From NCBI GenBank assembly GCA_026874595.1, contig CM049315.1, forward strand, positions 66,409,916-66,473,915: DNA of 64,000 nucleotides, given 5' to 3'. Each line of letters begins with the position of its first letter. Positions within the stretch are counted from its first letter, which is position 1. The position numbers were made by a program, and so were the translations under genes. The DNA is from Sipunculus nudus. Its lineage: Eukaryota; Annelida; Sipuncula; Golfingiida; Sipunculidae. The notes below the pieces were generated by a model. That model searched no databases and was not told where the DNA came from. It saw nothing but the letters and a program-made list of their open reading frames with translations. This document shows, in pieces, positions 367 to 58,519 of the stretch.

Positions 367-1340
367 CTAGACATTTCTTCTGTGCCATAGTTTCACCAGA
401 CAATTAATCCTTCCCCCCCCCCCCCTTCAAGAATAGGCCCCATTTTTAAAACCATATGCTGACACCATGGTTTCTTTCATCTGTCAACTTGAAACAATAT
501 TTTTTTACCAAATATGGGTATATTCAAGGTCGAGGCAACTATATACCTTATCCCATAACCTATATCTATGTATATGCATAATATGAAAGAAATTTGTCCA
601 TTAGTTTTTGACATATAATGCTAACAGCTCTGTCAAGTGGAACTGATGGGGGTTTTAAAAGGCGCTAAAACAAGAAAAGAATAATAGGTGGCGCCACAAG
701 TTTCCAGTATATGACAACATTATTCAAGATCTTTAGTCAACTTGATTTTTGGATCAATCCATACATGAATTCTTGAGATATTTAAGTATCTGTGTGATTT
801 TCACCAAATACGGAAATATTCAAGGTCAAGGCCACTCTCATAGGATAGGTCATGACCCTAATTAATATACCTCATCCCATAACCCATATCTATTTATATA
901 TGTATAATATGAAAGAAATCTGTCCATTAGATTTTGAGTTATAATGCTAACAGTACTATCAAGTGGAATTGATGGGGGGTATTAAAAGGCGCTTAAACAA
1001 GAAAAAGATAATAGGTTGCGCCACCAATTTCCGGCACATGACAATATTATTTAAGATCTTCAGTCAACTTGATTTTGGATCAATCCATGCAAGATTCCAT
1101 GAGATACATAAGAAATTTCCCAAAAAATCGACCTATTCAAGGTCAAGGTCACTCTCCTAGTAAAGGTCATGACCACATTTTAAATAGGATATGTCCTCTT
1201 ACCAATATCTATGCAAATATCAAGTTTGGTAAAGATCTTTGAAACCTTTTTTGAGTTATCGCGCAGACAAGATTTATCTATGGTGGGGGCTGGACTGAAA
1301 TAAAACCACAGTATCCCCCCGACTTTGTCTGGGGATACAA
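367..1340 (-). mobile_element. HLE-C1, non-autonomous Helitron-like element
   Basis: On the - strand the 5' end is GTATCCCCAGACAA followed by a hairpin partner GGGGGGATAC. The 3' end is TATGGCACAGAAGAAATGT then CTAG|TT (CTAG at 367-370 on +). An inverted copy of the 5' end lies inside the 3' end, clearest in HLE-C2. The core is about 320-bp tandem units, each with a (G)GTGGCGCCAC-like palindrome and TCAAGGTCAAGG. No coding capacity. Confidence 0.7.
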
Positions 1341-1342
1341 TT

Positions 1343-1376
1343 ATTCCAGCCCTGGCTGTGGCATACATATGTGTAT
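1343..1376 (-). pseudogene. Second degraded duplicate of exon 3, cut off at HLE-C1
   Basis: On the - strand it reads ATACACATATGTATGCCACA then GCCAGGGCTGGAAT and stops exactly where the HLE-C1 5' terminus begins. It shares ATATGTATGC with the copy at 301-349, so these two are closer to each other than to exon 3. Confidence 0.7.
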
Positions 1377-1388
1377 AAATTAACATAC

Positions 1389-1517
1389 CAGAATGATTCC
1401 AGCCCTGGCCGTTGCGTATTGCATTTGTATCCATTCCCAGCAGTTGGGGCTCCATATCCCGACACGATCACCTTTTTGTAAGCCGAGTGCCAACATACCT
1501 GCAGCCAAACGGTCACT
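1389..1517 (-). CDS. ACSF2: ACSF2-like exon 3
   Basis: 43 codons, phase 0 on both sides. The acceptor is TATTTTTTGACAG and the donor GTATGT. It encodes [20 protein letters not shown] and [20 protein letters not shown] then IIL, the stretch that directly follows exon 2 sequence in this family. Two degraded copies of its 3' end lie just downstream in the same orientation (1343-1376 and 301-349). Confidence 0.9.
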
Positions 1518-4500
1518 CTGTCAAAAAATATTAAAAAACATGTGAAATCATAATTATTTTGAGAGAATGTACAAAACCTGTTTTCATATAGTAATATTAA
1601 GCATTTGTGCCAAGCATGGACTTATTGCCTAATGCAATATTTAAATAAGAACTTGAAATTTTTCTGAACAATTGTAGAGAAATATTTAAATAACTAGATG
1701 TGTCGGAACGACACGAATGCCCCCGCCTTGGGCAAATTAGAAACATTTGTAAAATTTGGAAAATTTTTTAAGTTCAGGAGATGTCGTATGGTCAAAAGTA
1801 GGTCAACAAGAGCAAAATGCAAACTCGATTTGTAACGGGTCATTATCAAGCAACAGACCAAAAATCATGCCAGTATATGCAGGCATTGTGAAAAAAAGTC
1901 CATACATGTGCATTTTCCATAAAAATTTCTGTCTTTCATGAAATTTTCTATGTTTAGGATCCGTAAAACAATCAAAAGTAGGTCAACCAGGATGAAACGC
2001 AAACTCGATCTGTAACTGTCATTATCTGCCCACACAAAAAAAATCAGGGTGGTATCTGCAGGCATTGAGGAAAAAAAGTCAGTACATATGCATTTGTTAT
2101 GAAAATTTATATTTTTCATGAAACTTTCTATGTTCAGGAGCAGTCAAATGGTCAAAAGTAGGTCAACTGAGACAAAACAGGAACTCAATCTGTAACTGGT
2201 CATTATCTGCATACACACCAAAAATCAGGCCCATATCTGCAGGCACTGCGAAAAAAAGTCCATACATGTGCACCTTTTTTATGAAATTTTCTATGTTAGA
2301 GCACCGTCAAACGGTCAAAAATAGGTCAACTGGGACAAAACGTGAACTCGATCTGTAACTGGTCAATATCTGCCGACACACCAAAATTGAGGCCAATATC
2401 TGCAGGCATTGCGAAAAAACGTCTGTACATGTGTATTTATCATGAAATTTCATATTTTTCATGAAATTTTCTATGTTCAGGAGCCGTAAAACGGTCAAAA
2501 GTAAGTCAACCGGGACGAAACGCGAACTCGATCTGTAACTGGTCTAAATCTGCCCACACACCAAAAATTAGGCCAATATCTGCAGGCATTGCGAAAAAAA
2601 GTCCGTACATGTGTATCTGTCATGAATATTTCTATTTTTCATGAAAATTTCTAAGTTTAGGAGCCGTAAAATGGTCAAAAGTAGGTCAACCAGGACGAAA
2701 CGCGAACTCGATCTGTAACTGGTCTATATCTGTCCACACACCAAAAATCAGGCCAATATCTGCAGGCACTGAGAAAAAAAAAACGTACATGTGTATTTGT
2801 CATGAAATTTCATATTTTTCATGAAATTTTCTATGTTCAGGAGCCATAAACCGTCAAAAGTAGGTCAACCAGGACGAAACGCGAACTCGATCTGTAACTG
2901 GTCTATATCTGCTCACACACCAAAAATCAGGCCAATATCTGCAGGCATTGCGAAAAAAAGTCCTTACAACTGTTTCATTTCGGAATGACGGAAGGACGGA
3001 ATGACAGAATGACGGACATGGGTAAAACTATATGCCCCGGCCACTTTGTGCCGGGGGCATAAAAATTTCCTATTTCCTTGTATCTGTCACTTCTGATGGT
3101 GGTGGTGAATATATGAGACAAATCACTCTAGGTTTTTTTAGAGCCATTCTCTCTGAATAGGTCAAATACAATGTCTTCCCAATGGATGAAGATATTTATT
3201 GCTTTTTATTAGAAATTAAAATGATAATTTATTCTTGGTTATTACACCCTGAAATGTCTCAAGTCTCAAAGGCTGCATGTCAACTATAATTTTTTCTGAT
3301 TTATTGTATCCGCCAAAACAGAGTTTTGCGGATACTATGTTTTCAGCTGCACGCCGCCGCCGCTGCCGCCGCCGCCGCCGCGTAGGTGTCCGGAGAACTC
3401 CTCCGTAACCCCTGGGCAGAATTTTACGAAACCCGGGATTATGTTCGGGTCACATGTGAACTGCTGCGCCCCGATTGTTTTGACCTCTGACCTTTCCTCT
3501 GCGCTCTGCGTCCATTTGTGCGTCTGTTTCCACACATAAACCCACATATCTCGGGAACCGTTTGACGGATCAGGAAAATTTTTTGCACAAATGTAGCCCT
3601 TGGAGAGCTATATAACATACACAAAAATGGTGGCGCCACCTGCAACCATAATTGCCTAGTGTCCATCTGTTCGTCTGCCTTGGGTTAAAATCACTCATAT
3701 CTCTGCAGTGATTTGACTAATTCACCTGAAATTCGGCATGCATATACATCCTGGATAGCTTTTCTGATTTTATGACAGGTGGCGCCACCTACATTCACGT
3801 TTATGCTGCAGACATCCAAGCTCATATCTCGGGAACCGTTTGACGGATTGGGCCAAAATTTTGCATGTGTATAGATCTCACATAGCTCTTTATCATACGC
3901 AAAACTGGTGGCGCTACCTGCAGCCATTTTTGCACAGCTCCCGTCTGTTTGTCTGCCATGGGATAAAATCACTCATATCTCTGCAGTGATTTGACTAATT
4001 CACCTGAAATTCGGCATGCGTATACATCCTGGATAGCTTTTCTGATTTTATGACAGATAGCGCCACCTACATTCACGTTTATGCTGCAAACATCCAAGCT
4101 CATATCTCGGGAACCGTTTGACCGATTGGGCCAAAATTTTGCATGTGCATAGATCTCACATAGCTCTTTATCATACGCAAAACTGGTGGTGCCACCTGCA
4201 GCCATTTTTGCACAGCTCCTGTCTGTTTGTCTGCCATGGGATGAAATCACTCATATCTCGGCAGTGGTTTGACATATCTGCCTAAAATTTTGCAGGTTTA
4301 TACATCCCCGACAGCTATCTTGATTTTATGACAGGTGGCGCCACCTGCATTCTAGTTTATGCAGCAGACATCCAAGCTCATATCTTGGGAACAGTTTGAC
4401 CGATTGGGCCAAAGTTTTGCACGTTTATAGTTCTCACATAGCTCTTTATCATACACAAAACTTGTGGCGCCACCTTCAACCATTTCTGCACAGCGTCCAT

Positions 4501-7500
4501 CTGTTTGTCTGCCACGGGCTAAAATCACTCATAAACATATAGTGGTTTGACTTATCTGCCTCAAATTTTGCATATGTATACAACTTGGATGGCTTTCTGG
4601 ATTTTGTGGCGCAACCTACATACACCATTTGGCTGCAGACATCCATGCTAATATGCAACACTTCACTCTATTTCCCCTTGCCACTCAATCCATGCCTCAC
4701 TTCACCCGTTCCACTCTGATTTAGGCAGATACACGTAGTGGCTTGTCGACTACCCGTATTCTAGTTTAGTTTTTAGCTTAGCTGACTGTACGTTATCTGA
4801 GCTATAGCAATCACCCTTTGTCCCTCTGGCCGTCCAGTTGTCTGGCAGTCAGTCTGTTAATAGGGCACAAATTTAACCGTTAGATCTAGAAACTTCTAAC
4901 TCTAGGTCCAAGGCAAATCTCCCTGGAAACCGTGGAATCCTGAAAATTGGTCACTGTGACCTATAATCTGTGAGCTATAAGAAAAAGACATTATCTGAGC
5001 ACCTTGAATGTCAGATGGGCACAAATCATATCTGTTAGGCCTAGAATCTCCTATAGCAACATCCAGGGAGGTTCTAAGCAAATCTCTTTAAAATACTGAA
5101 ATCAGGTCATAGTGACCTATATTCTGCAACCTATAAGAAAACGATGTCTTGTAAGCACCCTGAATGTCAGATTGGCACAAAGCTTATATGTAAGGCATAG
5201 AATATTCTAATGCATTATCCAGGTAGGTTCTGGGCAAATCTCTTAGAAAACCTGAATTTAGGTCATGTTGACCTAATTCTGCAACATATGGTTCAGAAAC
5301 ATAATTTTGAGCACCCAGACAGTCAGGGCACAAATTGATTATGTTTAAGGCCTAGAATCTTCCATTGTACTTAACATTCAGGGAGGTCCCCGGCAAAGGT
5401 ATGTGGAAACCTGAAATTAGGTCACTGTGATCAACTATCATTGATAAAAAACTACAGACTTTTGATGTGGTACATGTCTGGGATTGCGCACACTATCTAT
5501 TCCTGCTGGTGTGCAACCACAGTCCAAACTTCAATATTTAGTAATTTGTACATTGTAAGGCCTTGAGAAAAAAATTATTTTAAATATTTCTTTAAGTTAC
5601 GCTAATAAGAAGGTATACTCTTAAATCTCTCATATTTCCTGTCGGAATACACTGATTTGCATAGACTTTTACGTTGTTGATACATTATACTCAACATGAT
5701 AATGAGTTATTAACATGGGACATGTGACCGCTCAGCTGAAATTGATTCTGAGGATATTTTTATAAAAGTGGTTGTGTTGACTGTGCACTTTTATAAACTA
5801 AATGAAAGATGCAGGAGCCTCTCATGATCACAAACTTACGATCTTAAATTTCATCTAAGTGACTGTAATATGCATGTAAATATATCCACTGGGAACATAA
5901 GAAACCATGCAAACTAGAGAATAATGTGCAAGAACTGAAGCATGATAATACCCATTTGATTTATAAACTGAAATTAAATGCTGTAAAATATTATAATTTT
6001 CCCCTTTTTGAATGAGCATACCGGGTAAACTAAATTTGATAAGCAAGTTAAAACAAGCCAATTCGGTATACATTGCATCTGCACTGTGTAATATATGAAA
6101 CTTGGAAGCCTGAAACCATTTCATTCATTGAAGAAAATTGTTTTTATTCTATTAGCATATCCATTTTTGCGTGAATAGTTTTTACCATATTCATTTTTTT
6201 ACAAATTTTATATATTTGCATTAAAAAAAATTTTGAAAATATAAAATAATTGACAATTGTTAGCTGCATCATTATGTATCCTGAGTCTGGCTCACATCAA
6301 ATCAAATTATGCATACATATGTTTCATTTTTTTTATCACATATTAAAATCACTAAATATTACCTAAAAAACATAATGCCACAACATAGCATCTTCAAGAT
6401 AATTCTTTGAATCATTATTCAGAAAAAAAGTTTTGTTCATTTGGAGTTTTCAGTACATGCTTAATTTTATTAACTTAATACATAATTAAGTGAATTTGAT
6501 CAAACCTAAATTCCTTTTTTTTTCAAATCAGGTATATACACTGATGGTTGAGGGAGAAACAATATCATTATGCTAACTAGAATACGGGTAGTCGACAAGC
6601 GACTACGTGTATCCGCCTAAATCAGAGTGGAACGGGTGAAGTGAGGCATGGATTGAGTGGCAAGGGGAAATAGAGTGAAGTGTTGCATATTAGCATGGAA
6701 GTCTGCAGCCAAAGGGTGTATGTAGGTTGCGGCACCTACCACAAAATCCAGAAAGCCATCCAAGTTGTATACATATGCAAAATTTGAGGCAGATAAGTCA
6801 AACCACTATATGTTTATGAGTGATTTTAGCCCGTGGCAGACAAACAGATGGACGCTGTGCAAAAATGGTTGAAGGTGGTGCCACAAGTTTTGCGTATGAT
6901 AAAGAGCTATGTAAGAACTATACACATGCAAAACTTTGGCCCAATCGGTCAAACGGTTCCCAAGATATGAGCTTGGATGTCTGCTGCATAAACTAGAATG
7001 CAGGTGGCGCCACCTGTCATAAAATCAGAAGAGCTGTCGGGGATGTATAAACCTGCAAAATTTTAGGCAGATATGTCAAACCACTGCCGAGATATGAGTG
7101 ATTTTATCCCATGGCAGACAAACAGACGGGAGCTGTGCAAAAATGGCTGCAGGTGGCGCCACCAGTTTTGCGTATGATAAAGAGCTATGTGAGATCTATG
7201 CACATGCAAAATTTTGGCCCAATCGGTCAAACGGTTCCCGAGATATGAGCTTGGATGTCTGCAGCGTAAACGTGAACGTAGGTGGCGCCAGCTGTCATAA
7301 AATCAGAAAAGCTATCCAGGATGTATACGCATGCCGAATTTCAGGTGAATTAGTCAAATCACTGCAGAGATATGAGTGAATTTAACCCAAGGCAGACGAA
7401 CAGATGGACACTGTGCAAACATGGTTGCAGGTGGCGCCACCATTTTTTGTGTATGTTATAAAGCTCTCCAAAGGCTACATTTGTGCAAAAAAAATTTCCT

Positions 7501-10500
7501 GATCCATGAAACGGTTCCCGAGATATGTGGGTTTATGTGTGGAAACAGACGCACAAACGGACACAGAGCACTGAGGAAAGGTCAGAGGTCAATACAAAAT
7601 CAGGCAGCAGCAGTTCACATGTGACCCGAACATAATCCCGGGTTTCGTAAAATTCCGCCCAGCGGTTACGGAGGAGTTCTCCGGACACCTACGCAGCGGC
7701 GGCGTGCAGCTGAAAACATAGTATCCGCAAAACTCTGTTTTGGCGGATACAATTACTATCTCAAACATAATCTAATACTGAAATAGTTGTTCAATAACCT
7801 TGAATTCTTGACCACTTGAAGCACTTCATGTTATTATATTTCAGGATGTTCAATATCATTCCCCCTCCCCCCAAGCTCACAGAATATAGGCCAACATATG
7901 ACTTAATATCAGTGTTCAGAAAAATTTCCCAAGGATGTCAGGTTAGATGTTTCTCTATCAGATGAGCACAATTTATACCATGCAGGGTTGGCAATTTCTT
8001 CCAAGAGGCGGTTTCTTCCTTGGAAACTTCTGGAAATTTCCAGCTCGGAAGAAATAGTTTCCGCCGTTTCTTCCAGAAGAAACTTTCAAATTTCATGTGA
8101 TAATATATATAAAACTAATAAATTTTTAGCTTTATTTCTGCTTAAACATAATCTGTTCCTTCTTATAACTTAGGTTAATATTAATATATAGTGTTATCTT
8201 AGAATGTATGACTATTAGTTTAATTTAGTTAGACAAATATGCCTCATGTTGTTTCGAGTTATTCAGTTCAGGTGACACAATTTAAAATAAATTGCCACAG
8301 GTTTTGTCCAGTGAATCACGCAATGATTACCAGGTGATTACCGAAAAAAGTGCAGCTTCACTCCAGTTACCCCTGACTAAACAGAGAGACAGGGTATGGA
8401 TAAAGCCATGTCACAATTAACAGGGTTTCATCCACTATACTAATCAAACGGTCAAACTGCTCCTTGTTATATAACAGACTAGTTGATAAACCCAGTATAC
8501 CGGGCTTATTACCAGGGTTGGGGAGATATATTAACTGAGATGTGGAATGTTGGCCCATTTTTTATTCTAAAAGTTAACAGAAAATATAGGTTTTTAGTGG
8601 GGAAACTGTCTTAATAAGATATGTATAAATATATTTTACATTTATTTTGTGGGGCTGTCCTCGTGGCAAGAAAATTATACTCCAGTATGTTTACCTTGAA
8701 CACCTGGTCAGTGAAGATGTTTACATTGCGAATGAGATGTGGGGGCATTCAGGTTTTCGATGATTTTTATACTGGATTCTATCGTTGGATGTAAAGATTA
8801 GGTTGATGTGAGGAACACTTGACAGATTAATTAAATGTTCGTTTGCAAGAAAACTGTTCCTGAAGAAAGAAACAGAAATATGCATACCTCGTAAGTAGCA
8901 AAAGCGGACCTCACAGGACTCCATGCAGAGGGTCATCGCATTTTCAGCCACCACAACCTTTTTTTTATCATATCAGACAAATTTTGAGGCCTTAATACCC
9001 TGAAACATGCACTCCACCCCACCCCATATCTGTTCCTGAAATTAGGACCTTGAATTAGGTTTTGTCATTAATCCTCCTGGGTTGAACTCTCCATTTCATA
9101 AAGCAAGAAACATGTGTTTTTATCTTTTATTGACCACGCGCGTGGGTGAGAGCCTCGTGTAAATGTAAGGTCCGACAGGCTCAGATCCTCACTAAAAGCA
9201 AGCGTTATTCATATGAACAATAACTAGTAGTGTTTGAGGTTGAGTGACCAATATGCATTACGGTCATTGCCGAAGGCAGTTTGGCTGTGCTCAGTTTAAC
9301 CTCCGTGCCAGTCAGTAAAAATGGAAAAATCACTCAAATTATATGTCCATTAAAAATTATTTATTCTCATATCGCCTATGTCACTGCGGGGATAATAACC
9401 TTTAAAATTATCTATGGCATAGTATTGTACACAACGCGGTTTAAGAGAACATTGCGAACAGACATGTACCTAATTCCTTTTATAAGTATTAGATTTTTAA
9501 CCAGCAAATACTCTTGTACAGAGATAGGGTTTCTCATATTTTTTTAGGTATTTCCTAGTTTTTGCATAATCCACAACAAGCTCAGAAATAGACTTGGTGT
9601 TTGCAGGGCTGAGAAAATTGGTGTTCTGTTATCACATGCTTCATGGTAACTTAGATATAGATTACTGGCAGGTACTGATGGTACTCCACTGTGATTAACA
9701 ATAGACCTTACAATAATTATTGGTGAGATGAGTAAATTTAAATGAGGGATATTTATAAGTGATCACTAATTAGTCATAGTGTAATATCACACAGGATATT
9801 TATATTGTAAAGTCATACACAAGCAAGCTATTAATTGTGTTATATTTTGTAGGAAGTGCAGTTTGCATACTATTTAGATTCTACCCTAGTCATTGAATGA
9901 GTATGCAGCACTGCATGCACCTTGGCAGCTTTGCACTTGACTGTTATGATACAAGATGAGAAAATTGTAGTATATCAATTTATAATTCTCTATCAAACAA
10001 AAGTTACATTGCTGAGTGACACAAATTTGGTAAGGACTAATTGCAAATACAGAAAACTTCCTCTAACCAACATGTGAATACAAGTAGACAAGAATCTTTT
10101 GTTAATTAACATGTCAACACATACTATGCATCACTACATACTTAAATAGTTGAAATACCTCAATCAGCTGCAATTTCGGCAATACTTTTAGAATAAAACT
10201 AACAGAATTATATTAAGATTAACCAGAGCAATGACCTGTATACTGATTAAAAGTCATATTGTTTTATTTAATTCAAAAGAAATAGTTCAAATATTTGTTT
10301 TGTTTTTTTGTAAATCACACTATAATTCTTACTGTCCACTAAATTCCACTTTCATCCAATACTTCCCGGAAGAAAGTGGAGGAAACCCCATTTCCTCCAA
10401 TTTCTTCCAAGTCTCTGAAATGTATTTCTTCCAGAAGAAAACCAACCCTGATACCATGCTAACCAGAGTGGACTGCTGGACAAACAGTCAGCTGGACATT

Positions 10501-10571
10501 AAGACCCATATCTATAACAAGCTAAACCTAATTTTCATTCGGGGGGGGGGGGGGGGCCCAATAGTAGACCA

Positions 10572-10608
<37 letters not shown>

Positions 10609-13600
10609 TATATATATATACCCATACATATATATATATACATACATACATATATGTATATGGGCCGTAGCCTGACACTTTTGGCTGGGGGGGGGGGGGG
10701 GCAGTAAGCAGAAACAAGTATAAAGGGGAAATCCCCGACAGGGGAGGAAAATTTTGAAAAACTATATGTAGACTACTGCATTCTGGTGCATTTTTGCTGT
10801 TATTTATTGGTCAATGCTTACTTAGTGAAACAGTACTTCCTTGTAAAGAGATTATTATTTGTCTCGCAATGGATGCATTTTATTACAGAATATCAACTTT
10901 GCAATATTTTTTTTTGCACCTAAATCACGGAGGCTGCCGCCCTGTTTATATGGTAATCCAAGTACTGAGGGCGCCAAGCGCCCAAGCGTAGGAGGATATA
11001 TATATATGTGACAGTGCAAATACTCAATAATAAAATAGTGTTTGTTTTTATACCCATGATTTTGATGGGGGGGGGCTCAGCTTCCCAAACAATTTTATTA
11101 GGGGGGCCCGGCCGCCCCCCCTGCCCCCTCAGTTTCACCGCCTATGGACACAATAAAAACTACCTGCTAAGTCAGTGGTGAACATCTGCATAACAATCCC
11201 TTTTAAAGTAAACCCATCCACTTAAAGAGAAGATTCAAATAGAAGTGACTGCAATATTTAATGTCTAAAACCAAGAAATGAGCCATGGTGTGCACAGCCA
11301 CTCATACAAACCAAAAAAACTTTACCATTGCCACTTGTTCTGTTAAAGAAAAATATACAGAGAGCACAGAGATGTTTTATTTTGGTAGTAAATTCTGGTG
11401 TAGATATATTTCTCAAGAAGGAAACATTCTAAAAGGTTTTCATCTACCTCTTCCAGCAGATCAGCGAATGTTTTGCGGATGCCTTGATGACAGACGACCA
11501 CGGCTTCTTTGTCCGGATGTTTCTGTGTCGTCTGTTCCAGCATCTGACCGATTGTCCTCCCTACTAGCGTATAAGTTGACTCTCCTTGAGAGTAGCTCCA
11601 TTGTAGTTTGTTCTTCAGGTAATAATTTTGACTGAAAGTGAATGAAAGGTTTTGGTAAGATTTTGAACATGGGTCAGTGATGGGTTGAATGAAGTAGAGG
11701 TTACCATATTTATGTATGTATAAGACGACCCCTCAATATTGAGCCTAAATTTTATTTTTCAGCATCTCAAGTTGGAGCTACCAGCTACTGAGGATCACTA
11801 TGTCAGCATAATGATCACTTTAACACTGATGATTGAAATGGGATTTTATAATTTTTAATTCTTAAAATGGTCAGTGGTATATTTTTTTATGATGCTACAA
11901 GTGAAAACAGGAAAGCAATATAGAAAGGTATGGAGCAGACCAAAACAGAATTAATTAAACATATCAAAGAATGTGTATTATACAACAATTCAAATTAATA
12001 TCTTAAGAGATGTAAATTATCCTTGGCGGCCCTGAGGATGCTGAACAAGGGACCTATGGGTCACGACGCTCAGCTGTTATATATGATAAAAAAATATTAT
12101 TTAGAAATGAGGCACATGCTGGTTTTGTGTGGTAATAAATATTCGCTGTAATATGAGTTGTTGTTGTTTAGCTTATGTATGATTTTGATAGTACCTTTGG
12201 AGACAGGGAAGAGGATTGATTTCATTTATTTTATTAACAAATGGAGTACTATTGTCACACAGATTTTGACTTGGCAATATAACTTATAAGCAGAATATAT
12301 AATATAAGGGTTTAACTATTAATTAAAAAAAATTACAAATACTGTCCCAAATATAATTTTTATTAAAAATAATAAGAGAATCATATGATTTTTTAAAATG
12401 AAATATAAATGAAATGATTATTAAAATAATATTAAAGAATATATTCATGAATGCATTCATGAATACATTTTGAAAGTATTTGCACTGGTATTCATATACT
12501 TTCATTTTTACCTGAATTCCCATTCTTTATGCAAGAAATTTTATAATGGAGTACATAATCATATTCGTATTTAAATACAATTACAAAGTATTCGCACCAT
12601 GTCTGGTATTTATTCAGTTTTCACCAAACAATGATGTTGAGAATCCAGAATATACAAAATTCACACATTTAAATAATGATCATAAGTACCTGGTTTTATG
12701 GCTTTTATTTATATTAAAAAATAACTATAATAAATTCATTTTGGACTAATTTCACATCAATGTACACACTAAACACAGTAGGAATCTAGATTAATATTAT
12801 CAACTGCATCTTTGTCTATCATTAATTTCCATCATATGATCCCTAATGATTAGTAATGAATGATATGATTTACTTCTTTATCATTAAAATTGAACTGAAA
12901 AATACCATAGGTGACTGCATGGTGTTATTTGGAATACGTGACATTCTATCCATTGATACCAGATTCTTATATCATCAGTAACTGCAAGTTAATTTCCTGT
13001 TATTATAAACTAACAAATACCTTTTCTATTTTTCATTAATTTTTTATTAAAAACCAATAAAAATTTATCAATTTATTGTTTATTGTATGTAGTTGGTTAA
13101 AACTACTAGATGAGTTGGGTTGGACACCTGGATCAACTGTGGCTGGCCATAAGCTGCCTGGATTCCCTGTATGCCTCGCCTCAAGCATGCATAATTTGCT
13201 GAAAGTTCAACAAGGTCAACATACAGGTGACTCAAGAGGGTCTGAAGAGAGCCAAAGTCTGACAGGGTCTCATAAAAACATTAATAAAAGCTACAATTTT
13301 TGGCCAATTTCTTTCAGCTTTCTAAACTTTAAAGCTGAAATCCTTATGTGTGCATGATATGAAAATTATATCAACAGCGCTCACAGGAAACAAACGTGCC
13401 ATGGTCAAAGTTGGGCAAAATTTAAGTTACTAATTTTACATTTATACTAATAACTTATAAAATTTGAAAAATTCATAACTAATTTTGGGTATTCAATTGA
13501 ATCTTGATTAAATAATGTTACATCCCTGACAAAAAATCTCTAGCTTCAGCAATCCCCTTGTTAAGGGAGTAAATATATTTCTTGATTTTTTACAAAGCGC

Positions 13601-34319: not shown

Positions 34320-34388
<69 letters not shown>

Positions 34389-48285: not shown

Positions 48286-49056
48286 TCGATGTGGGTTGTT
48301 AAAGGTTTCAGTCTCCCTCTGATTATAGGTTTAATCCTGGCAGCAAGGAGAGCCCAGAATTTTAGAAATCTGTGTGAAGTCTCAGTCCAACTGGTCTTGT
48401 CTCTTCAGCCAAGCTTTGATCGAGAAGCACCTGATTATGGCTACTGTTATCAGTATTTTCAGCTTTTGGTCCTTTTGGTGTTGTCACAGTTAGGTCAACT
48501 CTATAGTACACAGGGAAATTTTACCTTTTTTATATCTGTCAATCATAAAAAATGTAAATGGACGTTCATCCATCTTTGAAGTAAGCATTTGGTTTATTCA
48601 AGGAAATTAGGTGCTTTGACGACCAGTTGTATTGTGGAACCTTTCATTCCTCAGTTTTACTTTTATTCACTGCATATAATTTTATTTCTAATTTTCACAT
48701 AAGAATAAACAACCCTCATTTCGTTATACAAGGTGTTTATCACAAGTCTAGGCATCCAGAAGTATGGAAAACTTATTCTGAAAAAACACGAAATGTACAT
48801 TGTATACATGCCAAATATGAATCATAAACTCAGTGGTAATGTAAGTGTTCTTTGTTTTGTTTTTGATGAGTGCTTTGTGGTCGCTGTTGAAATTGCTTGA
48901 GTGGTAATATGAGGTAGACAACAACCATTCACATGTAAAGAACAGGCTAATCTATTTTTCCAGAACCGACAGTCGAGGAGTGCAAAGATTTTGTGGTTGC
49001 GGTACCCTGGGAAAAGGATCATTTGAAGGAAGCCTTTAAAAGAAAATATACATTTT
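48286..49056. other. Intergenic, nothing recognised
   Basis: No exon-like open frame with splice sites, repeat termini or RNA gene was recognised downstream of SUMO. Confidence 0.4.
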
Positions 49057-50049
49057 TTAGCCCTTAAGCTGATGGGCTATTGCCGTCACCCAAGCTGTCT
49101 GTCCGGCGTCCTTTAACTTTTACCTTGTGAGCAGGATATCTCGAAAAGGATTCACTGTCAGAATTATATTTCTGTGGTAAAGATGTATATCGACAAAATC
49201 TAGGTCAGGTTCGAAGATGGGGTGACCTTGACCTATTTTTCTACGTTTTAGAGCTGATTATAGAAAAACACTTAGAAGCTTATATCTAAGGAACCATTTG
49301 GTGGATTTTTACAAAACTTTCTATGGTCATTTGGACTGAAAGTTTGTACCTGCTCCACAAGTTTGGTGGCTCCACCTACAATTTCTGATTTTTTACGAAT
49401 TTTTATCAGATTTTTCAAATTTGGCCCTGTGAGCAGGATATATCTAAAAGGATTCACCACAGGAATTTTCATTCTTTGGTGATGATGTATATCAGCAAAA
49501 TCTTGGTCAAGTTCAAAGATGGGTGACCTTGACCTAATATTGGACATTTTAGAGCTGATTACAGACAAATACTTAGAAGCTAATTTTTCAGGAACCATTG
49601 GATCTTACTATGATCATTGAGACTGATGGTCTGTACCTGCTGCACAAGTTTGGGGGCACCACCTACTGTTTCTGATTTTTTTTAATGGATTTTTATCGGA
49701 TTTTAAACTTTGGCCTTTTGTGTGGGATATCTCCAAAGGTATTCCACACAGGAACTTCATTTTTCAGTGCTATTGCATATTTACAATATTTTGGTAAAAT
49801 TTATATATGCGTGTTCTTGACTGTCTTATCGATGTCACAGAGCTTAGAATTGAAAAATAACTTAGGAGCTTATTTCTCAGGAAGCATTTGATGGTTAAGA
49901 AACATGGTATATACCTCTCCAATTTAAATTTATAACATGTACAGATATATGTCCGAATGACAACAAATATTTTGTACTTGTTACTGTAACCACCTATAAA
50001 CACTGTTCTTGTGGCTGAGGGCTTTTATCAGCTTTTGCTGATATTCTAG
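49057..50049 (+). mobile_element. HLE-E2, Helitron-like element
   Basis: 5' hairpin TTAGCCCTTAAGCTGATGGG (TAGCCC/GGGCTA). 3' end GGCTGAGGGC (inverted 5' motif), hairpin ATCAGCTTTTGCTGAT, ATTCTAG|TT. Two core units of about 300 bp with decayed GGTGGCGCCACC (GGTGGCTCCACC, GGGGGCACCACC). Confidence 0.75.
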
Positions 50050-52746
50050 TTAATAGCAGAAGTGTCTAATGATTGTAATCTTGAGAACTGACCCAATATT
50101 TTATTTTAAAATGTGATCTGTATGATTGCTTTTCAGGATGTGTACCAGGAAAAATTAATATATTTACAAAATATTAAATGTCAGAATAAAAACATAAGAA
50201 GCCACAACTGAATATGGACACAATTAAGCCATACTTGTATATCTTTGTGATATTACCTATCGTAGTATTTGCAAAATGAAGGATATATGACAACATCTTG
50301 AGAAATTATGACAACAGTAAAACCTGTGGTGAAGAATAAGATAAAAATACCAAAGATCCCAGCGAGTCATGAGGACCCGTAGCAGAAAGTCTGTCAAAAT
50401 GTGCGATACCACGCGTAGATCAGTGTATATGGCTCTAAGAACCAGGTCCGCAGACTATCTTTCGAGTGAATCTTTCGATGTTATGGATTTGGTTCTATGT
50501 GCATGTAAAGCCTATTTGATGGACATTTTTTTGCCAGAAGTAATTCCGTCACCGATCCTCGTGTTATGTAAACCTGTATAACAACTGCCTCGTACAGTGT
50601 AAAGCCTATGGTGTATTTGCCTGCATCCCAATTAATCTCCACTATATTTGTATCCTTAAGAATAAAGTCCTGGGAGGGGGGGGGGGGAGGGACTTGTTTG
50701 AGCACAGTCCCGCCGCTATTGCGAAACTCGAAATATTTCATGGCTCATTATCAAACTTACACGCATATGAGAGAATGAAGCTTATTTAAAATGAGGTCAT
50801 GACCTTGTTTTTTAGCTTGGCTGTCTGAGTCTTCTGAGCTATAGTAATCACTCCGTTGTCTGGCTGTCCGGCCATTAACAAGGCACAAATTGTAACCGTT
50901 AGACGCAGAAACTTCTAACTGTACATCCAGGGAGGTCAATAAAAATACCATTCGAAACCTTAAATTAGGTCATAGTTTACCATACCTTTGAGCTATGAGA
51001 ATCGTGAGTACCCGTCTAAATAATTAAAAATTTGATTAAAAAAACTTGAGTATCTGAATAACTTATGCACTGATGGCCATGATTCTTTGCATGCATATTG
51101 ATTATTGACTGTTTCATCAATTCCAGCAGGCGCCACCTGTATCTCTTCTAGTTTTAAGAGAACCTGTGAGCTTATGCGATGGTGTGGCGTCGTCTGTACG
51201 TTCACCCATACTTTTTCGAAAACGGCAGGAGCTAGCATCACCAAACTTTGTGCAAAAAAAATCAGTCATCTAAAAAAAACTATCCAGTTTATGTATTTTG
51301 GGGGGGGGGGCTATCTTCTTTTTCTTAAATTATTAGGGAAAAGCTAAACAAAAATTTTAATCTTCTGCGAAACTGTCCACCCAAACCATTCAATATTTAT
51401 GGCATCCCCAAATTTTATGCAAAAATCTGTCACATATCAAATGTTTAGGGATTGAGCGTTTTGTGGCGCCATCTGTACGAACTTATATTTTTCAGGAAAA
51501 GGTAAAAGAAATCTTTAAATCTTCTCTAAAATCATCCAGCCAAATGGTTCAATATTTCACAGAAATGATCGCAGAGACTAGTTTTCTCAAATAGTTTTTG
51601 TTTGTTGAATTTTGGCAGAGTTACACGAATTTGAAATTAGTCATTTGTCTAGTAAGTATACTTACATAACAGTCTCAGAAACAAGAGCTAGGATCGCCAT
51701 TTTTTTTTTTTTTTGCAAATGTTTGACTCGTATTTGAAATGGTAGTTTTTTTGTGATGCCACCTACATCGACCTGTTTTTTAAAGACAAAAAACATTATT
51801 TAACCCCTTTTCATTTTAAAAATGATTCGTGATGAAACTGTCAAGCTGAATCGTTAAATTGTTCACAAGTATTATCCTAGGGTATGGTTCTCTGAATTGA
51901 TTAAGAATGGATTGGGTTTGTTGATTTTTGGTAGAGTCATAGAAAGGTGAAGTTTGTCTTGTGATATTCAACAATGAAAGGACTACATCTTTTATTATTT
52001 AAAAATTTTTTTTTGATTATAAAAATCTTATGGATATGTCAGCTTGAAAAAAAAAATTGTAGCCAAAATCATCCAGTATGTGTAAACAGATTTACCAACA
52101 GGCCACGATTGAGTCTGAATCTATAAATAGCTTTGCAGACTGCCAACTATTTCAGATTTGGCATCAGACCAAACGTCAGTCTAGATCTATTTATAGCTTT
52201 GGCAGACTGCTAACTTATCAGATTATGCAACAGGTAAAGGGTTCACTCAGTGCAGCCAGCTGCAGGTCAAGTGATCTCTCCGTGAAGAAGCTGGAGCAAG
52301 TAATTCGTTCCGTTTCACTCGAGGCAACTGCCTTTTTCACCTACGCCTGGTTAGCCCAGTGCACTTTTCTCAAGACAAGTTTGATGTATAAATATTGTAC
52401 TGGCCTGATACTTTGACCTGTCCATGCATCTTTGGTGGCTCTCTCGTTCACAAGACTGGTGCTGCCATCTTCAATTACTTTAGTTCAGTGTGTGTGCTTG
52501 CTTATTTCTCAGGAGGGATTTGATATATCAGCCTGAAATTGTGTATATTTATACTTGCTTTGTCGTATACAACCACTGGTGGCGCCACCAACAATAATTT
52601 TGACACAGTGTTTGTCCCTGCTTATTTCTTAGAAGGGGTTTAATATATCAGCCTGAAATTGGGCATATGTATACATTTTGTTGTATACAAAAACTGGTTG
52701 TGCCACCTACAATAATTTTGTGTTGTGAACTCCTATTCCATTATTA
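50050..52746. repeat. Decayed repeat-rich intergenic sequence
   Basis: An HLE-B-like 5' end near 50811 (TTAGCTTGGCTGTCTGAG). Scattered GGCGCCACC boxes occur at about 51130, 51475, 52575 and 52705 in degenerate units. Poly-G runs are near 50678 and 51300. Open frames here (for example 50369-50581 and 52078-52416) lack family features or splice context. No gene called. Confidence 0.4.
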
Positions 52747-53326: not shown

Positions 53327-53341
53327 TTCCTCCCCTCTTAG
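53327..53341 (-). other. Polypurine tract of the gypsy element
   Basis: On the - strand TAAGAGGGGAGGAA lies directly before the LTR start, the usual plus-strand primer position. Bases 53342-53969 form the untranslated region between it and pol. Confidence 0.7.
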
Positions 53342-53969
53342 ACCAAGACCGCTTGCGGTTTGGTCCAAAACAAACACACTAAATCAAACTCTAAATAGAC
53401 TTAAATATAAAATTAGAACACCCACAATTTAGGTGACATCTTACGAACGATAATCAGGGTTCCTGTAAGAAAACAGTTTTTAAATATTAATAATAGCGCA
53501 GTCTTAAGGATCTCCTATATAATCACGCGCTCTCCTGCTAATTCTAATGCGAAACTTCTTAACCGGTCTGTAGCTACTAAGCAATCAAGCCAGTACTAAC
53601 AATTATCTGAGATAAAAGCTACATGTGTTCACCATACTTGCCCAAGGAACATTTCCGGCTAACCCTTTATATCTCTGCTAATCTGGTGATTCGGTAACGG
53701 CACATGACTTTACTCAAGGGTATACTTTCTTAACAAGATTTTACCCTTGCCAGTTCCGCCATACTAACTATTCACCAAATTTACGGCAGCCTCAACCCTT
53801 GCCTTGGTGCAAGGCTGAGAATTACACACCAGGTCTTATTTCAGTTATGAACCCATAACAACCTCAACCCTAAGTTCCTGGTCTCGTTAGAGTCTGTTTG
53901 CCTTTTAGCCACGTAGTACTTTAGCTCCATACAAGTTAAGTCTGTCAACTGGTTTCTTAATACCCCGGC

Positions 53970-54583
53970 CTAACTGAACATCATCGGCCGCCGAGCGCAC
54001 TGTATCATCGCCCATATTTCCATCATCTGTGTCCTCGCCATCGTACAAGAAGGGCTATGGAGGTGTTTCAACATCCCGATCTTCCGGGTTACTCCCGGCT
54101 CGGGGCTCCCCTTCCTCCAAATCATCCCCTCTACAAGGCTCACTCTGATGGTCGTCACCAACCCCTGGCTCATCTTGACCCACCAACGCATCCTCGTCGC
54201 TCTCCTGGTCAGTTCCTCCGTCCGGATCCAGCTTTCACGGGGTTGATCTCCTACGTAAGACTTCAATTGATCCATATGGACAACCTTACTAGGTTTATCT
54301 GGGGCCTCTTGAATACGAAGATTGACATCAGTCACCTCATCGGTAATAAGATACGGGCCCGTCTAAATCTATAGGCATTGTCTTTTCTCTGCCCAGAAAT
54401 ATCAGGTCTGGCGAGCACTTGGTACTGTCATGAGCGGTCGCTTGATACGCGGACATGACGTAGGGTAACAAATCATCCCAGTTGTCCTGGTAGTCATTTA
54501 CGAAACAGAACAACATCTGCAGTAAAGTCTATTTCACGCTCCACGATCGCATCGCTCTGCGGACGATGGGTACTACTCCGGTT
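53970..54583 (-). pseudogene. Ty3/gypsy integrase C-terminal part
   Basis: Carries THRPQSDAIVERE, the integrase motif with the third catalytic acid (Glu). After a frameshift come NDYQDNWDDLLPYVMSAYQA and CSPDLIFLGRE, and after another shift the tail RIQEAPDKPSKVVHMDQLKS. These are typical of gypsy integrase ends. At least two frameshifts. It joins the fragment at 58520 across HLE-B8. Confidence 0.8.
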
Positions 54584-57500
54584 TATAGCTCAGCTGACTA
54601 TAAGTCAACTGGGCGATAGTCGCGGTCCTTTGTCCGTGGGCTGTCTTGCCGTCCGTGCGTCCGTTAAACTAGTGTTACAGAACCTAATATCAACAGATTA
54701 CGTATGCTTGATGAACATATATTTTGTCAAGGGGATGAAAAAATCAGATTCTGTAACACTAGGCAGCGTGAAATGTCTAGGGGAATGAATGAAGAAGTCA
54801 GTGGTTTTTTGTTAACAAATAACTAAAATTTATTCTTAAAACAACCCTAACATTACAATACACTAAATCAATACAATTACACAGAGTAACAGCGGTATAA
54901 CAACAAATCAATACAATCACAATAAAATAAACAAAGTGCACAGTACCTGGATACCACCATTGTCACAATGATAAGTCCTTTTAAATGTATATACGGGATG
55001 AAAAGTCTACACAAACTCTCCCAGAGAATAACAGTCCAATGTAAAGCTCTTGTTACAATCCAGAAAGTAAACTTGAGGCAGGCAGCACCAAATTATATAG
55101 AGTTAGTAATAGTAGAATCCCTGAAATTACTGGATAATCGGACAGGTCCTACACGTCTGTGCCCGCTTGAATATTCTCTCACCTCCCTCTCGACTCTAAA
55201 ACACAGTCCCCTATTTATAACTTTTCACCTCCAGCCGAGAACCTTCCATTGCTCAAACATTCTAATGTATCTAACAAAGCACACACGTTAAAAGAACATA
55301 CCAGAACAAAGAACGCTGTGCATCCAGGGTTCAACCAATGCGGATTAAACCGAGCCTGTAATATCCGGCCAGGCGAGGCCGCTACAACACGAGCCACGTG
55401 TGGCACACAAACCAAACGCCAACAACACATGGAACATCCGTGTGCACAATAAAACAATCATCTGTAAGACCGCCGCACACAATAAAAAGGGGCACCTTTA
55501 ACACTAGCACGTTTTGAAACCGTTGGATTTACGAATCTGAAATTCGGCATACCATTAGATGTCCCCAAAATCTCCTTCTATACCGAAAATTGGGTCACCA
55601 GGACTTCGTTCCTTCAAGACAATTAGGAAAAACCTCCGTTTTCCATTAAAAACCCGTTGTTACACTTCAAAACACCCTAATATCAAAACCACTGACCTGA
55701 TATTGATCATTTTTTATATATTAATTTCTCTGTATATTTCCTATGTGCATTCCAGAAATTAGTTCAAGATTTATTAAATTCTTGAAGAAATGGGCACGAA
55801 CATAATGCACTTTGTAAAAATTCAGGAAATATATTTACTCCCTTAACTTGAGAATAGCTGAAGCTAGAGACTTTCTTTCAGGTATATAACTATATTTAAT
55901 CAAGATTCAATTGTATACCCAAAATTAGATATAATTTTTTTTAGCATCAATATAAAATCAGTACCTTAAATTTTGCCTAGATTCAACCATGCCACATTTT
56001 TGTTCTGTAACTGCTGTGGATTTAATTTTCATAGCATGTTTCCATAAGCATTTCATCTGTTAACATCTGAAATTTGAAACCATTTGATCAAAAACTGTAG
56101 ATTTTATTCAAGTTTTCAAGCACCATGTAAAGCATTGTTTACATCAAGCTAGTGTTATGCAGTTTGCTAGAGCTCAGCTCCCCAGCTTCCCAGGCCAGCT
56201 CTCGGCTGCAAAAATTTGGCATACAGTTAGATGCCCCCAAAATCCCCTACCATACGAAACGTTTGGTCACTAGAACTTCGTTCCTTCGAGATATTAAGAA
56301 AAAAAACTTTCCATTAAAAACCCATTGTTACACCCCAAGACTGCCTAATGTCAAAACCACTGATCTGACTTTAATCATATGTAATATACATGTTCGTCCA
56401 TTCATTCTGTTTGCACATGCCAGAAATGATGAGAGTATTGCGTAAATGTTTTAAGTTATGGGCCCGAATATAATGCACTTTGTAAAAAATCAAGAAATAT
56501 ATTTGCTCCCTTAACATGAGAACTGTTGAAGCTAGAGATTTTTTTGTCAGGGATATAACATTATTTTATCAAGATTCATTTGTATACCCAAAATTATTTC
56601 TGAATTTTTCAACATTTATAAGCTATTAGCATAAAGATAAAATAAGTACCTTAAATTTTGCCTTCATTTGACCAGAGGACGTTTGTTTCCTGTAAGCACT
56701 GTTAATATAATTTTTATATCATGCAGAAATAAGTATTTCAGCTTGTTAATTTTGAAAGTTGAAAGGAATTGGCCAAAAACTGTAATTTTTATTAAAGTTT
56801 TTATGAGACCATGTCAGACCCAGGCTCTACCCAGCCCCTCTTCAGTCACCTGTATGTCCTCTGCTTGACCTTTCAGGCCAGTTATGCACGCTTGAGGCGG
56901 GGCATAATACTGGTCAGCCAGGAAGCCTGGCCACAGTTGATTCAGGTGTTCAACCCAACTCATCTATAAGTTGTTTTGACCAACAAAATACAATGAATAA
57001 ACAATAAATAAAAAAAAACTTTTTATAGGTCTATAATAACAACTTTAAGAAAAATCAATAGAAAAGGAATTTGATAGTTGATGAATAACAGGGAATTACC
57101 TTGCAATTATTAATGTTTATCGGATTTGTATGGATGGATTAAAATGTATTCCAAATACCACCAATGAGTCACCTATAGTATTTTTCTTTTCGATTTTGAT
57201 AATGAAAAAAAAATTATATTATATTGTTCTTTACTATTAGGGATTATATGAAGGAAATTAATGATAGACAAAGATGCAGTTGATGATATTAATCTAAATT
57301 TCCAGGTCTTTTCCAAGTGTTCCGGCTTGTTAATTTATATTCATTTCAAAATTTAAAAAAATTAAAATATGTCAAAATTTAAAAAATTTACTCAGACAAG
57401 TACTGATTAAAGATGTCAATATATTTCACTAAATACATTAAGATCGTGGCTGTATCAGCTGCAAAAAGACTATGTAAATTATCAAAATGTATATAACTGG

Positions 57501-58519
57501 TTCCTTTATTTCAGTTAATAAAATTAATCTTGCTCATCTCTTGTTTTCTCCGTGCATGATTTATAGGGTGTTCTTATCTTTGGGATATTTTTTTTAAACA
57601 TATAATGGTTTCATAACTGAGATTACTTATATTTTTCTTATATATATTTTTTAAAATAAAATTATTTGAATATGATAAAAAATCAGACCTTAGACAAGTT
57701 CTCATTATGATTTCTCATTATGTTAATATTTGTCATAAGACTCTTGCTGTACTTATGATCATTATTTAAATTTGTAAAATTTGTAAAATCTGGATTCTCA
57801 AACACTTTATTTGGCTGAAACTGATAAATACCAGACGTGGTGCAGTACTTTGCAAATGTTTTTGAATGCGAATATGAATATGATCTCCATAATTTCATGC
57901 ATAAGAATCGGAATACAGGTAAAAATGAAAGTATTTGAATACAAATGCATTATAAATATATTCTATAATATTATTTTAATAATCATTTACTTTGATAATA
58001 TTATTAAAAAGTCTTTTCAGATGATATTGTTAATTTATTTAAATTAAATTTTTTAAAATTAAAATCATATTTGACAAAATTTTTGTAATAAATTTTTAAT
58101 AGATATATTTTTCATAAAAATATTTTTTAAACTTATATTATTTGTGCTAGAGCTACTCTTGGGTAGGGATAACCTGTAATTATTAAATAACAGTTAACTC
58201 ATTTGTAAAAAGCATAACTAACATGACTGAAGAGGGACAGTTTTTTTTTTCAAATAATTCTACTGCAATGTAGATAAAGTTATATGGCCAAGGCAAAATT
58301 TGTGACAATAACATACCATTTCCAACTGTACGTAATATAAATGACGTCAGTCCCCTGTCTCCAAGGACATTATCAAAACCTTACATAACTTGAGTTAAAC
58401 ACTATCAACTCATAATACAGCTTATATTACCACACAAAACCAGCATTTAACTCCCCTTCCAAATCATATTTTGTGATCATACATAACAGCTGGGCGCCGT
58501 GACCCATGGGTCCCTTGTT
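54584..58519 (+). mobile_element. HLE-B8 inserted in gypsy integrase
   Basis: Starts TATAGCTCAGCTGACTATAA with a (CCGT)-like tract and ends CGCCGTGACCCATGGGTCCC then TTG|TT. The interior resembles HLE-B1 and carries a solo LTR near its left end. Integrase text stops at one edge and resumes at the other. Confidence 0.8.
54673..55503 (-). mobile_element. Solo LTR, 831 bp
   Basis: On + it is TGTTACAGAACC...CACCTTTAACA with a 4-bp flanking duplication CTAG (54669-54672, 55504-55507). On the - strand it has a TATA box (TTATAAATAGGGG, near 55213-55226) and later AATAAA near 54830, in the order expected for U3-R-U5. No internal region remains. It differs from the gypsy LTR at 52.7 kb. Confidence 0.75.

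Follow-up and report, generated by a model that had tools for sequence, protein, structure and literature searches.

The repeats of families A–E in the window (the whole analysed stretch of 64,000 nucleotides from Sipunculus nudus) are of a known kind, HINE/Helentron, with new members. We consider it very probable (about 0.9) that they are HINEs, the non-autonomous kind of Helentron, here with a tandem array at the centre, and that each end class has its own RepHel clade. The Helentron/Helitron2 identity, already proposed in a sequence-only reading of this DNA, is supported by the ends, by insertion at TT with no target duplication of several bases, and by Rep-PIF1-endonuclease elements lying within the same ends.

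Terminal design of the repeats

The sequence-only reading described six families with one terminal design. Five of them, A–E, share a layout that begins with a 5' hairpin, runs through a stretch rich in GTCC or CCG and a tandem core, and has an inverted copy of the 5' end inset from the 3' terminus (by 32 nt in A, 22 in B, 31 in C, 23 in D and 27 in E), with a second hairpin on the 3' side and then CTAG or CTTG ahead of TT. No member of the sixth, HLE-F, for which that reading gave no coordinates, was identifiable in the window; a tandem array at 42.3–43.9 kb, examined as a candidate, has a GTCC-like stretch without a convincing hairpin. The end scan showed asymmetric TIRs of 8–15 bp with hairpins at both ends, as in Helitron2; the subterminal inverted repeats of A–E consist of a terminal 5' copy with its own hairpin and an inset 3' copy, and the end sequences include the 3' palindrome or hairpin of Helentron/HINE elements. 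Elements and fragments in the window (strand in parentheses) are:

367–1338 (−): family C element; 5' hairpin 1311–1338, ~326-bp tandem core, degraded 3' end, CTAG at 367
1694–3065 (−): family D element; 5' hairpin 3032–3060, 180-bp tandem core, 3' end 1694–1727 (ATCTAG before TT)
3303–4764 (+): family A element; 5' hairpin 3306–3335, 278-bp tandem core, 3' end 4724–4764
4774–5424 (+): B-type 5' end (4774–4807) and the repeat after it; right boundary approximate
6577–7753 (−): family A element with two ends; 3' 6577–6617, 5' 7721–7750
12046–14670 (−): family B element; 3' end 12046–12076 (CCTTG before TT), 5' end 14633–14666, ACGG-rich stretch, probable end pairing; near 14422 it carries a paralogous, uninterrupted version of the site into which E inserted
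14983–19048 (−): family B element; 3' end 14983–15013, 5' end 19015–19048, probable end pairing; broken up by the E element and by fragments of C and B
15563–15607 (−): family C 3' end, then TT (end-pattern scan)
15697–15727 (−): further family B 3' end fragment (end-pattern scan)
17771–18803 (−): family E element within a B copy; 3' end 17771–17807, 302-bp tandem core, 5' end near 18799–18803
19051–20213 (−): family B element; 3' end 19051–19081, 5' end 20176–20209; head-to-tail with the adjoining B 5' end (19048/19051), TT alone between
21004–22157 (−): family C core, ends missing; 326-bp tandem repeats
22181–22304 (−): family A 3' fragment (end-pattern scan)
22309–26120 (−): B-type element; CACTTG 3' end at 22309, degraded 5' end at 26120, probable pairing, A copy nested
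22627–23964 (−): family A element with two ends, nested in the preceding B-type element (end-pattern scan)
26128–26978 (−): family A 5' part; hairpin 26946–26975, truncated next to a B-type 5' end
29030–32672 (−): family B element; 3' end 29030–29060, 5' end 32635–32668, probable pairing; a 178-nt stretch has 76% identity to L003, matching close to the 3' end of the coding element of clade B there
38188–39369 (+): family A element, degraded 3' end
44917–45011 (+): 95-nt sequence whose 5' and 3' ends are B-like but degraded (CCCTAG ahead of TT), possibly a mini-element
45577–47459 (+): family B element; 5' end 45581–45614, 3' end 47429–47459
49055–50049 (+): family E element; 5' end 49059–49087, 3' end 50013–50049
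50805–51159 (+): B-type 5' end and core, ~75% identical to the autonomous B 5' region (L027, L028)
54582–58517 (+): family B element; 5' end 54586–54619, 3' end 58487–58517, probable pairing

Since the first C element lies on the minus strand, the coordinate previously given as its start is its 3' end. The 3' side is damaged in this copy and in the A copies at 26128–26978 and 38188–39369.

A mismatch-tolerant scan of both strands with ten patterns recovered the 5' and 3' ends of all five families, against 0 matches when the window was shuffled three times (order-2 Markov); because the patterns were drawn from the window itself, this shows recurrence of the ends and not prediction. Exact string matches in the window numbered five for GTATCCGCC, three for GGCGGATAC and one each for GTATCCCCAGACAA and TTGTCTGGGGATAC, with two exact matches and one reverse complement for GGCTGAGGGC. 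A pattern-free scan for hairpin-forming 9-mers with an inverted recurrence 400–6,000 nt distant gave 13 matches per strand versus 0–2 per shuffle (ten shuffles, one strand); many of these join ends of different copies or fall in core repeats, so they are support and not a count of elements. Blind scanning for a hairpin plus CTWG recovered A, B, C and E ends, along with false ones inside the cores. The hairpin listing by itself gave no informative signal for ends, and an 8-mer scan for asymmetric TIRs in the first extended RepHel loci gave no matches.

Genome-wide ends and insertion sites

Exact 3' ends were found genome-wide at 4,613 places for family A, 7,388 for B, 1,117 for C, 2,219 for D and 1,156 for E, while reversed-pattern controls gave 0 matches for each of the five; a failure of ends across the genome to match these hairpins, which the sequence-only reading had named as fatal to it, did not occur. 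Among the matches listed, TT stood next in 97 of 100 for A, 97 of 100 for B, 99 of 100 for C, 91 of 100 for D and 89 of 100 for E. Some flanks recur (among the matches listed, one A 3' flank was present three times and the A 5' flank was TATTTTT in 15 of 100), so the 100 listed places per family are not 100 independent insertions. Head-to-tail B ends made up 2 of 100 among the matches listed, and group I ends followed by TTGCTTGC made up 21 of 100 among the matches listed; such copies give only a hint of rolling-circle transposition.

To look for empty sites, the two flanks of each of 11 window elements were joined and compared with the window and the fetched loci. One of the 11, the E element at 17771, yielded usable empty sites; the joined flanks of B at 20209 matched their own neighbourhood only, and those of the other nine gave no empty site in the window or fetched loci. 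Two further cases lay outside the window (D in L051, E in L053). No target duplication of several bases, the other observation named in advance as damaging, was seen at these three nested insertions, and T-rich/TT insertion of this kind is characteristic of Helentrons and HINEs. The exact number of Ts at the three empty sites is ambiguous.

Canonical Helitrons (Helitron1) have 5' TC, 3' CTRR and A-T insertion, without a 5' hairpin; they are ruled out here by the TT insertion and the 5' hairpins.

Coding elements and RepHel clades

Rep-helicase-endonuclease elements were found between family ends for B at C5 and C10, for A at C6, and for a relative of C at C3. The larger elements with A-, B- or C-like ends encode a HUH-motif Rep and a PIF1 helicase, intact or broken; an Exo_endo_phos-like endonuclease is C-terminal in those coding copies scanned for it, with the clade B match scoring under the Pfam cut-off. 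The autonomous Rep/helicase element that the sequence-only reading had proposed to look for exists for A (Rep, PIF1 helicase, C-terminal endonuclease and same ends, with broken ORFs) and B (the same, with a weak endonuclease), and for C only through a relative with slightly different inverted repeats; no enclosing coding element was found for D or E, whose copies seen in RepHel genes were all nested ones. In none of the fetched loci did both ends and an intact ORF occur together.

The B coding elements at C5 and C10 are ~16 kb, with both ends read and the middle known from search matches only. Their 5' ends (L027, L028) share AGCTCAGCTGAC with family B, and upstream of the T run their flanks differ; the 3' ends, across from these at each place, are in L030 and L029, and the one at C10 has another B 3' end within 45 nt after it. 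Open frames around Rep are 1,124 aa at C5 and 676 aa at C10. A B-clade copy at C17 has a 2,342-aa ORF, with only the 3' end in the sequence read. In L003 a B 3' end downstream of the RepHel ORF is identical over 37 nt to window 19082–19046; in the fetched stretch of L005 (clade B) no B 3' end was found by exact motif. In several loci a B-clade element has an A copy at one shared position; two of these elements, followed outwards, end at the same B terminus, beyond which their flanks differ, so the host element moved as a unit.

The autonomous A element at C6 (L067+L060+L056+L052; 19,658 nt, 19.7 kb) matches family A at 27/27 of the 3' end and 27/28 of the 5' hairpin, with broken ORFs of 491, 364, 443 and 382 aa. 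The relative of C at C3 (L053+L058; 8,897 nt, 8.9 kb) has a 3' end matching at 41/45, a C core and a 5' hairpin; its inverted repeats (K5, in L053) differ from those of C by 2 mismatches in the 5' 14-mer, and of 12 bases compared at the 5' end one differs. By the family rule of Thomas et al. 2014, as excerpted, a Helentron partner and its HINE share at least 11 identical bp of subTIR (PMC4067079); the inverted repeat in A is ~9–10 bp, though identical between the partner and family A. An A 3' end lay upstream of Rep in one (L067) of six K-type loci read, and was not found in the extensions of L049 (~13 kb upstream of the Rep ORF) and L054 (~8 kb); no ends of their own were found for L050 and L051.

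In a FastTree tree of 18 rows, RepHel with B ends and RepHel with A or C-like ends formed separate clades with local support of 1.000 each, a split that rests on few elements, with both ends read at four RepHel places. Gene orientation relative to the ends is opposite: the RepHel gene points away from the 5' end in clade B and towards it in clade K. At least two enzyme lineages lie between matching ends in the same genome, and the one shared rolling-circle machinery that the sequence-only reading had supposed for all families is not supported, since the two clades, with their opposite gene orientations, go with different ends. Group I is a third RepHel lineage, which goes with another set of ends, one not found in the window; no group I 3' end was recognised within ~6 kb upstream of its RepHel.

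Might one RepHel lineage nonetheless move all families in trans, reading shared shape instead of sequence? The layout is alike in all five families, each inserts at TT, and both ends were read at only four RepHel places; yet A/C-like ends enclose clade K genes and B ends enclose clade B genes, and we consider such action in trans improbable. We give similarly little credence to the RepHel genes at C6 and C3 being unrelated elements flanked by chance by separate A or C copies. Chance neighbours do exist, as A, D and E copies are nested in RepHel elements and the A ends in L054 are those of a complete nested A copy. At C6, however, likeness to the window A copies inside the 3' end stops after 56 nt (reaching 82 nt at 78% against one copy), so that the sequence past this end is unlike the A core; in L049, too, RepHel is followed by the A core and then the A 5' end, and L049 and L052 share that 5' terminus but not their outer flanks; and at C3 the ends and core are all of one C-like type. 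An identity of the repeats as cut-and-paste DNA transposons of the MITE type, or as satellites whose hairpins arose by chance, is barely credible: inverted repeats and tandem arrays are present, and pearl elements were initially classed as MITEs (PMC7492417, in excerpt), but the inverted repeats are asymmetric and no several-base target duplication was seen at the three empty sites, which disfavours MITEs, and the TT target and head-to-tail junctions also argue against this explanation.

If A–E are HINEs served by separate clades, then by analogy with the Helitron2/Helentron literature the RepHel-endonuclease would nick within the T run, one strand would be copied from the 5' hairpin, and copying would stop on reaching the 3' inverted copy and hairpin, skipped stops giving head-to-tail copies. 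The short families would be internal-deletion derivatives that kept the 5' end, the tandem array and a short 3' end. CTTG-ended B would use clade B and CTAG-ended A and C clade K, as presumably would CTAG-ended D and E.

Tandem cores and relation to known Helentrons

TRF gave core units of 180 bp (D), 278 bp (A), 302 bp (E) and 326 bp (C). The cores of A, C and E, and that of the autonomous B element, contain a regularly spaced 12-bp palindrome, GGTGGCGCCACC, and the palindrome-bearing families with known RepHel (A, B, C relative) span two clades. Mismatch within families was compared between palindrome and flanks in five sets: A type 2 (0.047 vs 0.152) was the only set with clear excess conservation, the difference was slight in A type 1 (0.071 vs 0.112) and C (0.177 vs 0.211), and its direction was opposite in E (0.208 vs 0.128) and autonomous B (0.241 vs 0.197). 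As the palindrome clearly beats its flanks in one set of five, no claim of selection is made. The autonomous B core matched the C core at 68% over 134 nt and the E core at 81% over 58 A-rich nt, matches which vanish at E 0.01 once exact palindromes are masked; the A core matched the autonomous B core over 18 nt only, at the palindrome. This weak similarity beyond the palindrome favours common descent over a shared site, and the core monomers of autonomous B, C and E may, from their sequences, be so related. It is rather unlikely that GGTGGCGCCACC is a shared cis-acting site which explains why tandem cores were retained, making them other than passive filler; its candidate roles would be a site for a dimeric host protein, or restart of rolling-circle synthesis.

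Pearl elements carry an ACGG-type microsatellite. Pearl elements of bivalves also have central repeats (cited in PMC7492417, in excerpt), and their likeness to A–E is one of description. The excerpted text of Thomas et al. 2014 (PMC4067079) gives HINEs and Helentrons subterminal inverted repeats at both ends, a 3' palindrome, central repeats in some, a TT/T-rich target and a Rep-helicase with a C-terminal endonuclease; A–E share these features with different sequences. It mentions one Helentron with its gene in opposite orientation, whereas here there are two opposite-orientation clades with family ends of one genome. Helitron2, in the part of Bao and Jurka 2013 drawn upon (PMC3627910), has a hairpin at each end, asymmetric TIRs whose 3' copy is inset by ~20–30 bp, and RepHel genes in opposite orientation in some elements, all as found with A–E; its definition there is without tandem cores, which A–E have. 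Also close in description are the eleven Cg_HINE elements of Crassostrea gigas (Vojvoda Zeljko et al. 2020, PMC7492417, in excerpt), which like A–E have satellite-like central repeats, a GTCC-type microsatellite (in the left flank of several), subTIRs, a 3' palindrome and TT sites with no TSD. Their consensus units are 138–181 bp, against 180–326 bp here, and the study was unable to connect 10 autonomous Repbase elements with any of them, whereas coding elements with matching ends were found here.

Within one genome, tandem-core HINEs are thereby tied to coding Helentrons, a connection left unresolved in the excerpted oyster study (PMC7492417). Our data suggest an association between end class, RepHel clade and gene orientation, from which a simple prediction follows for transposition assays and for annotating similar genomes. 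Should the palindrome prove functional, it would also account for the tandem arrays, which Helentrons spread as satellite-like DNA.

Repeat families and their terminal layout

By self-comparison and a tandem repeat search, a few repeat families, mostly tandem-cored, make up roughly half of the window: 31.5 kb of its 64 kb, counted over intervals with some inferred boundaries and pairings. Five families, A–E, several of them nested in each other, were recovered by reading the ends and by scanning with ten mismatch-tolerant end patterns, which gave 0 matches in three shuffled windows. The sequence-only reading had claimed one Helentron-like terminal design, and this layout was seen in families A–E: in transposon orientation each opens with a 5' hairpin and continues through a stretch that is GTCC-like or rich in CCG to the core; on the 3' side an inverted copy of the 5' end is followed by a second hairpin, a terminal CTAG (A, C, D, E) or CTTG (B), and TT. 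The inverted copy is inset 22–32 nt from the terminus, near the ~20–30 bp given for Helitron2 in the portion of PMC3627910 consulted.

Start of the 5' hairpin in each family
Family A: GTATCCGCC...
Family B: TAGCTCAGCTG...
Family C: GTATCCCCAGACAA...
Family D: ATGCCCCCGGC...
Family E: AGCCC...

Two B elements lie head-to-tail at 19048–19051, where TT alone separates one 3' end from the next 5' end. At 39354–39428 a near-perfect inverted repeat (75 nt, 98.7%) takes in the terminal TTTCTAG of an A element together with the adjoining 3' flank, as though a fold-back of the 3' junction had been copied. A 144-bp tandem array at 42300–43905 has a GTCC-like stretch on its left side, clear hairpin ends were not seen on it, and it is possibly the sixth family of the earlier reading. 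Another array, of the 25-bp unit GGACTCACTATAGTGGCCTGGATCC (40422–40594; 98% matches over 40422–40551), showed no connection to Helentron ends. A stretch encoding 24 aa of SUMO (44685–44756) matched a 168-aa SUMO-2 chain at E 2e-16 (two matches) and single SUMO-2/3 chains at about 6e-7; about 160 nt further on lies a degraded B-like mini-element of 95 nt (44917–45011).

Genome-wide ends and the TT target

Exact 3' ends occurred genome-wide 4,613 (A), 7,388 (B), 1,117 (C), 2,219 (D) and 1,156 (E) times; the reversed patterns of all five families gave 0 matches. Insertion at TT, taken by the sequence-only reading as a Helentron mark, was borne out: TT followed 89–99 of the first 100 listed 3' ends per family (A 97, B 97, C 99, D 91, E 89), and the remaining places were mostly TC. 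The A 5' hairpin occurred 5,056 times, with TT before 95 of the first 100 listed; the flank TATTTTT stood at 15 of 100 listed A 5' ends, and because some flanks recur, the list overstates the number of independent insertions. A 14-mer of family C occurred 6,092 times versus 2 for its reversed form, a figure that is not a copy count since the 14-mer matches both C ends.

Target duplications of several bases, which would have spoken against this kind of element, were seen at none of three insertions: the E copy at 17771–18803, a D copy in locus L051 and an E copy in locus L053. The first lies inside a B copy; once joined, its flanks align with window paralogues that lack the insertion (including near 14422, 19978, 31750, 32435 and 45828), the empty site falling within a T run; it alone of the 11 window elements tested gave a usable joined-flank match. 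The other two copies split Rep-helicase (RepHel) genes. When each copy was cut out and its flanks fused, the sequence aligned with the L001 protein across the junction: one choice of trim within the T run gave no gap there (L051, 71 aa at 41% identity; L053, 208 aa at 32% identity), and trimming three bases further left one residue missing. The T run at the site makes it ambiguous how many Ts belong to the element.

Coding elements between matching ends

The Pfam Helitron_like_N search gave at least 143 matches. Eight loci were fetched first, then short stretches of 18 others for sorting lineages, and then 9–10 kb around six, which represent a third lineage or its neighbours. The 3' end of L003 equals window 19082–19046 of family B over 37/37 nt, with a close variant in L004 and L007. 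The sequence-only reading had suggested looking for an autonomous Rep/helicase element with the same ends, and coding elements bounded in this way were found for B, for A and, with C-like ends, for C.

Coding elements bounded by family-type ends (C numbers are genomic places)
C5: 42907358–42923484, 16,127 nt, B-ended, both ends read
C10: 71595574–71611301, 15,728 nt, B-ended, both ends read (3' position computed by hand)
C6: 50110116–50129773, 19,658 nt, A-ended, both ends read
C3: 82023666–82014770, 8,897 nt, C-like, with a nested E copy inside

C10 has two B 3' ends within 45 nt of each other. The C6 element matches the A 3' end exactly (27/27) and the A 5' hairpin at 27 of 28 positions; inward from the 3' end it resembles the window A copies for 56 nt, or 82 nt in the case of one copy, and no further. 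In the C3 element a C-like 3' end (41/45) and a C-like 5' hairpin enclose a C core (82% over 773 nt). An A copy lies at one fixed place inside B-clade elements in several loci, L015/L016 among them, with examples at C17, C5, C8, C1 (two places) and C10; the C17 copy and one C1 copy of this host share the same B terminus with different flanks, so that the nested copy can travel along with its host element.

Three RepHel lineages were distinguished. The clade B ORF of L004 (2,342 aa) has Helitron_like_N, PIF1 and a weak Exo_endo_phos match (E 0.0004, below the Pfam cut-off); the group I ORF of L001 (2,250 aa) has Helitron_like_N, PIF1, a strong endonuclease match and OTU; clade K ORF fragments in L052 have Helitron_like_N, PIF1 and Exo_endo_phos (E 6e-13). 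L003, L004, L049 and L053 contain the HUH motif (QQRG.PH.H). An unrooted FastTree built on Rep regions (18 rows) gave support of 1.000 to clade B and likewise to clade K (L049, L052, L053, L054), the two adjoining with support of 0.948; the L049 Rep region is 38–41% identical to most group I loci and 31–34% to most clade B loci.

The clade B gene reads away from the 5' end, which lies upstream (L027/L028) with the 3' end downstream; the clade K elements C6 and C3 have the 5' hairpin on the downstream side of the gene. These four elements suggest that gene orientation is linked with RepHel clade. Only this link is put forward here, since opposite orientation was itself noted earlier in single Helitron2 and single Helentron elements (in the parts consulted of PMC3627910 and PMC4067079, respectively). 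Group I, for which one end was found, probably shares the clade K arrangement. The 3' end of its non-autonomous family was counted 434 times; TT came after 96 of the first 100 listed, and 21 of 100 run on into TTGCTTGC, the start of that family's 5' end.

A palindrome in the cores and a proposed origin of the non-autonomous families

The window has 19 occurrences of the 12-bp palindrome GGTGGCGCCACC, and the 324,520 bases of window plus loci have 40; these 40 are not a random sample, as the loci were chosen for Helentrons. Another 29 palindromes of equal half composition gave 0 occurrences.

Places of the palindrome
Window 3629–4463
Window 7003–7430
Window 18165–18467
Window 21549–21872
Window 52578
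Loci L027, L028, L052 and L053

Allowing two mismatches, all 44 window matches fell in A, C or E copies or in a repeat at 50.8–53 kb. The palindrome was absent from D and from the non-autonomous B copies scanned, and, at up to one mismatch, from the scanned group I loci. It is spaced alternately 149/129 nt in A, ~325 in C, ~300 in E and mostly 337 in autonomous B. Around it, autonomous B is weakly similar to C (68% over 134 nt) and to E (81% over 58 nt, A-rich), and the family A core has only the palindrome and a few bases in common with autonomous B. The palindrome may have been left over from ancestral monomers that the cores had in common, or it may be a functional site, and comparison of copies within families did not decide between the two. 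Within PMC, the full string turned up in a single paper, on a bacterial chitinase, and a 10-letter part of it with "tandem repeat" gave no match.

The repeat kind is already known as HINEs/Helentrons (PMC4067079, in the part consulted). The closest known kin are the Cg_HINEs of the Pacific oyster, which have tandem cores as here; according to the sections of PMC7492417 consulted, no autonomous elements could be related to them. No title found in the open-licence literature announced a link from HINEs to autonomous elements for molluscs, and one may be in print.

We infer that each non-autonomous family would depend in trans on the RepHel-endonuclease of the clade with matching ends, which would move it by rolling-circle copying into TT. 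A HINE would arise when the coding region is lost between the 5' part with the core and the short 3' end; L049, in which RepHel runs directly into an A core, looks like an intermediate between coding element and HINE.
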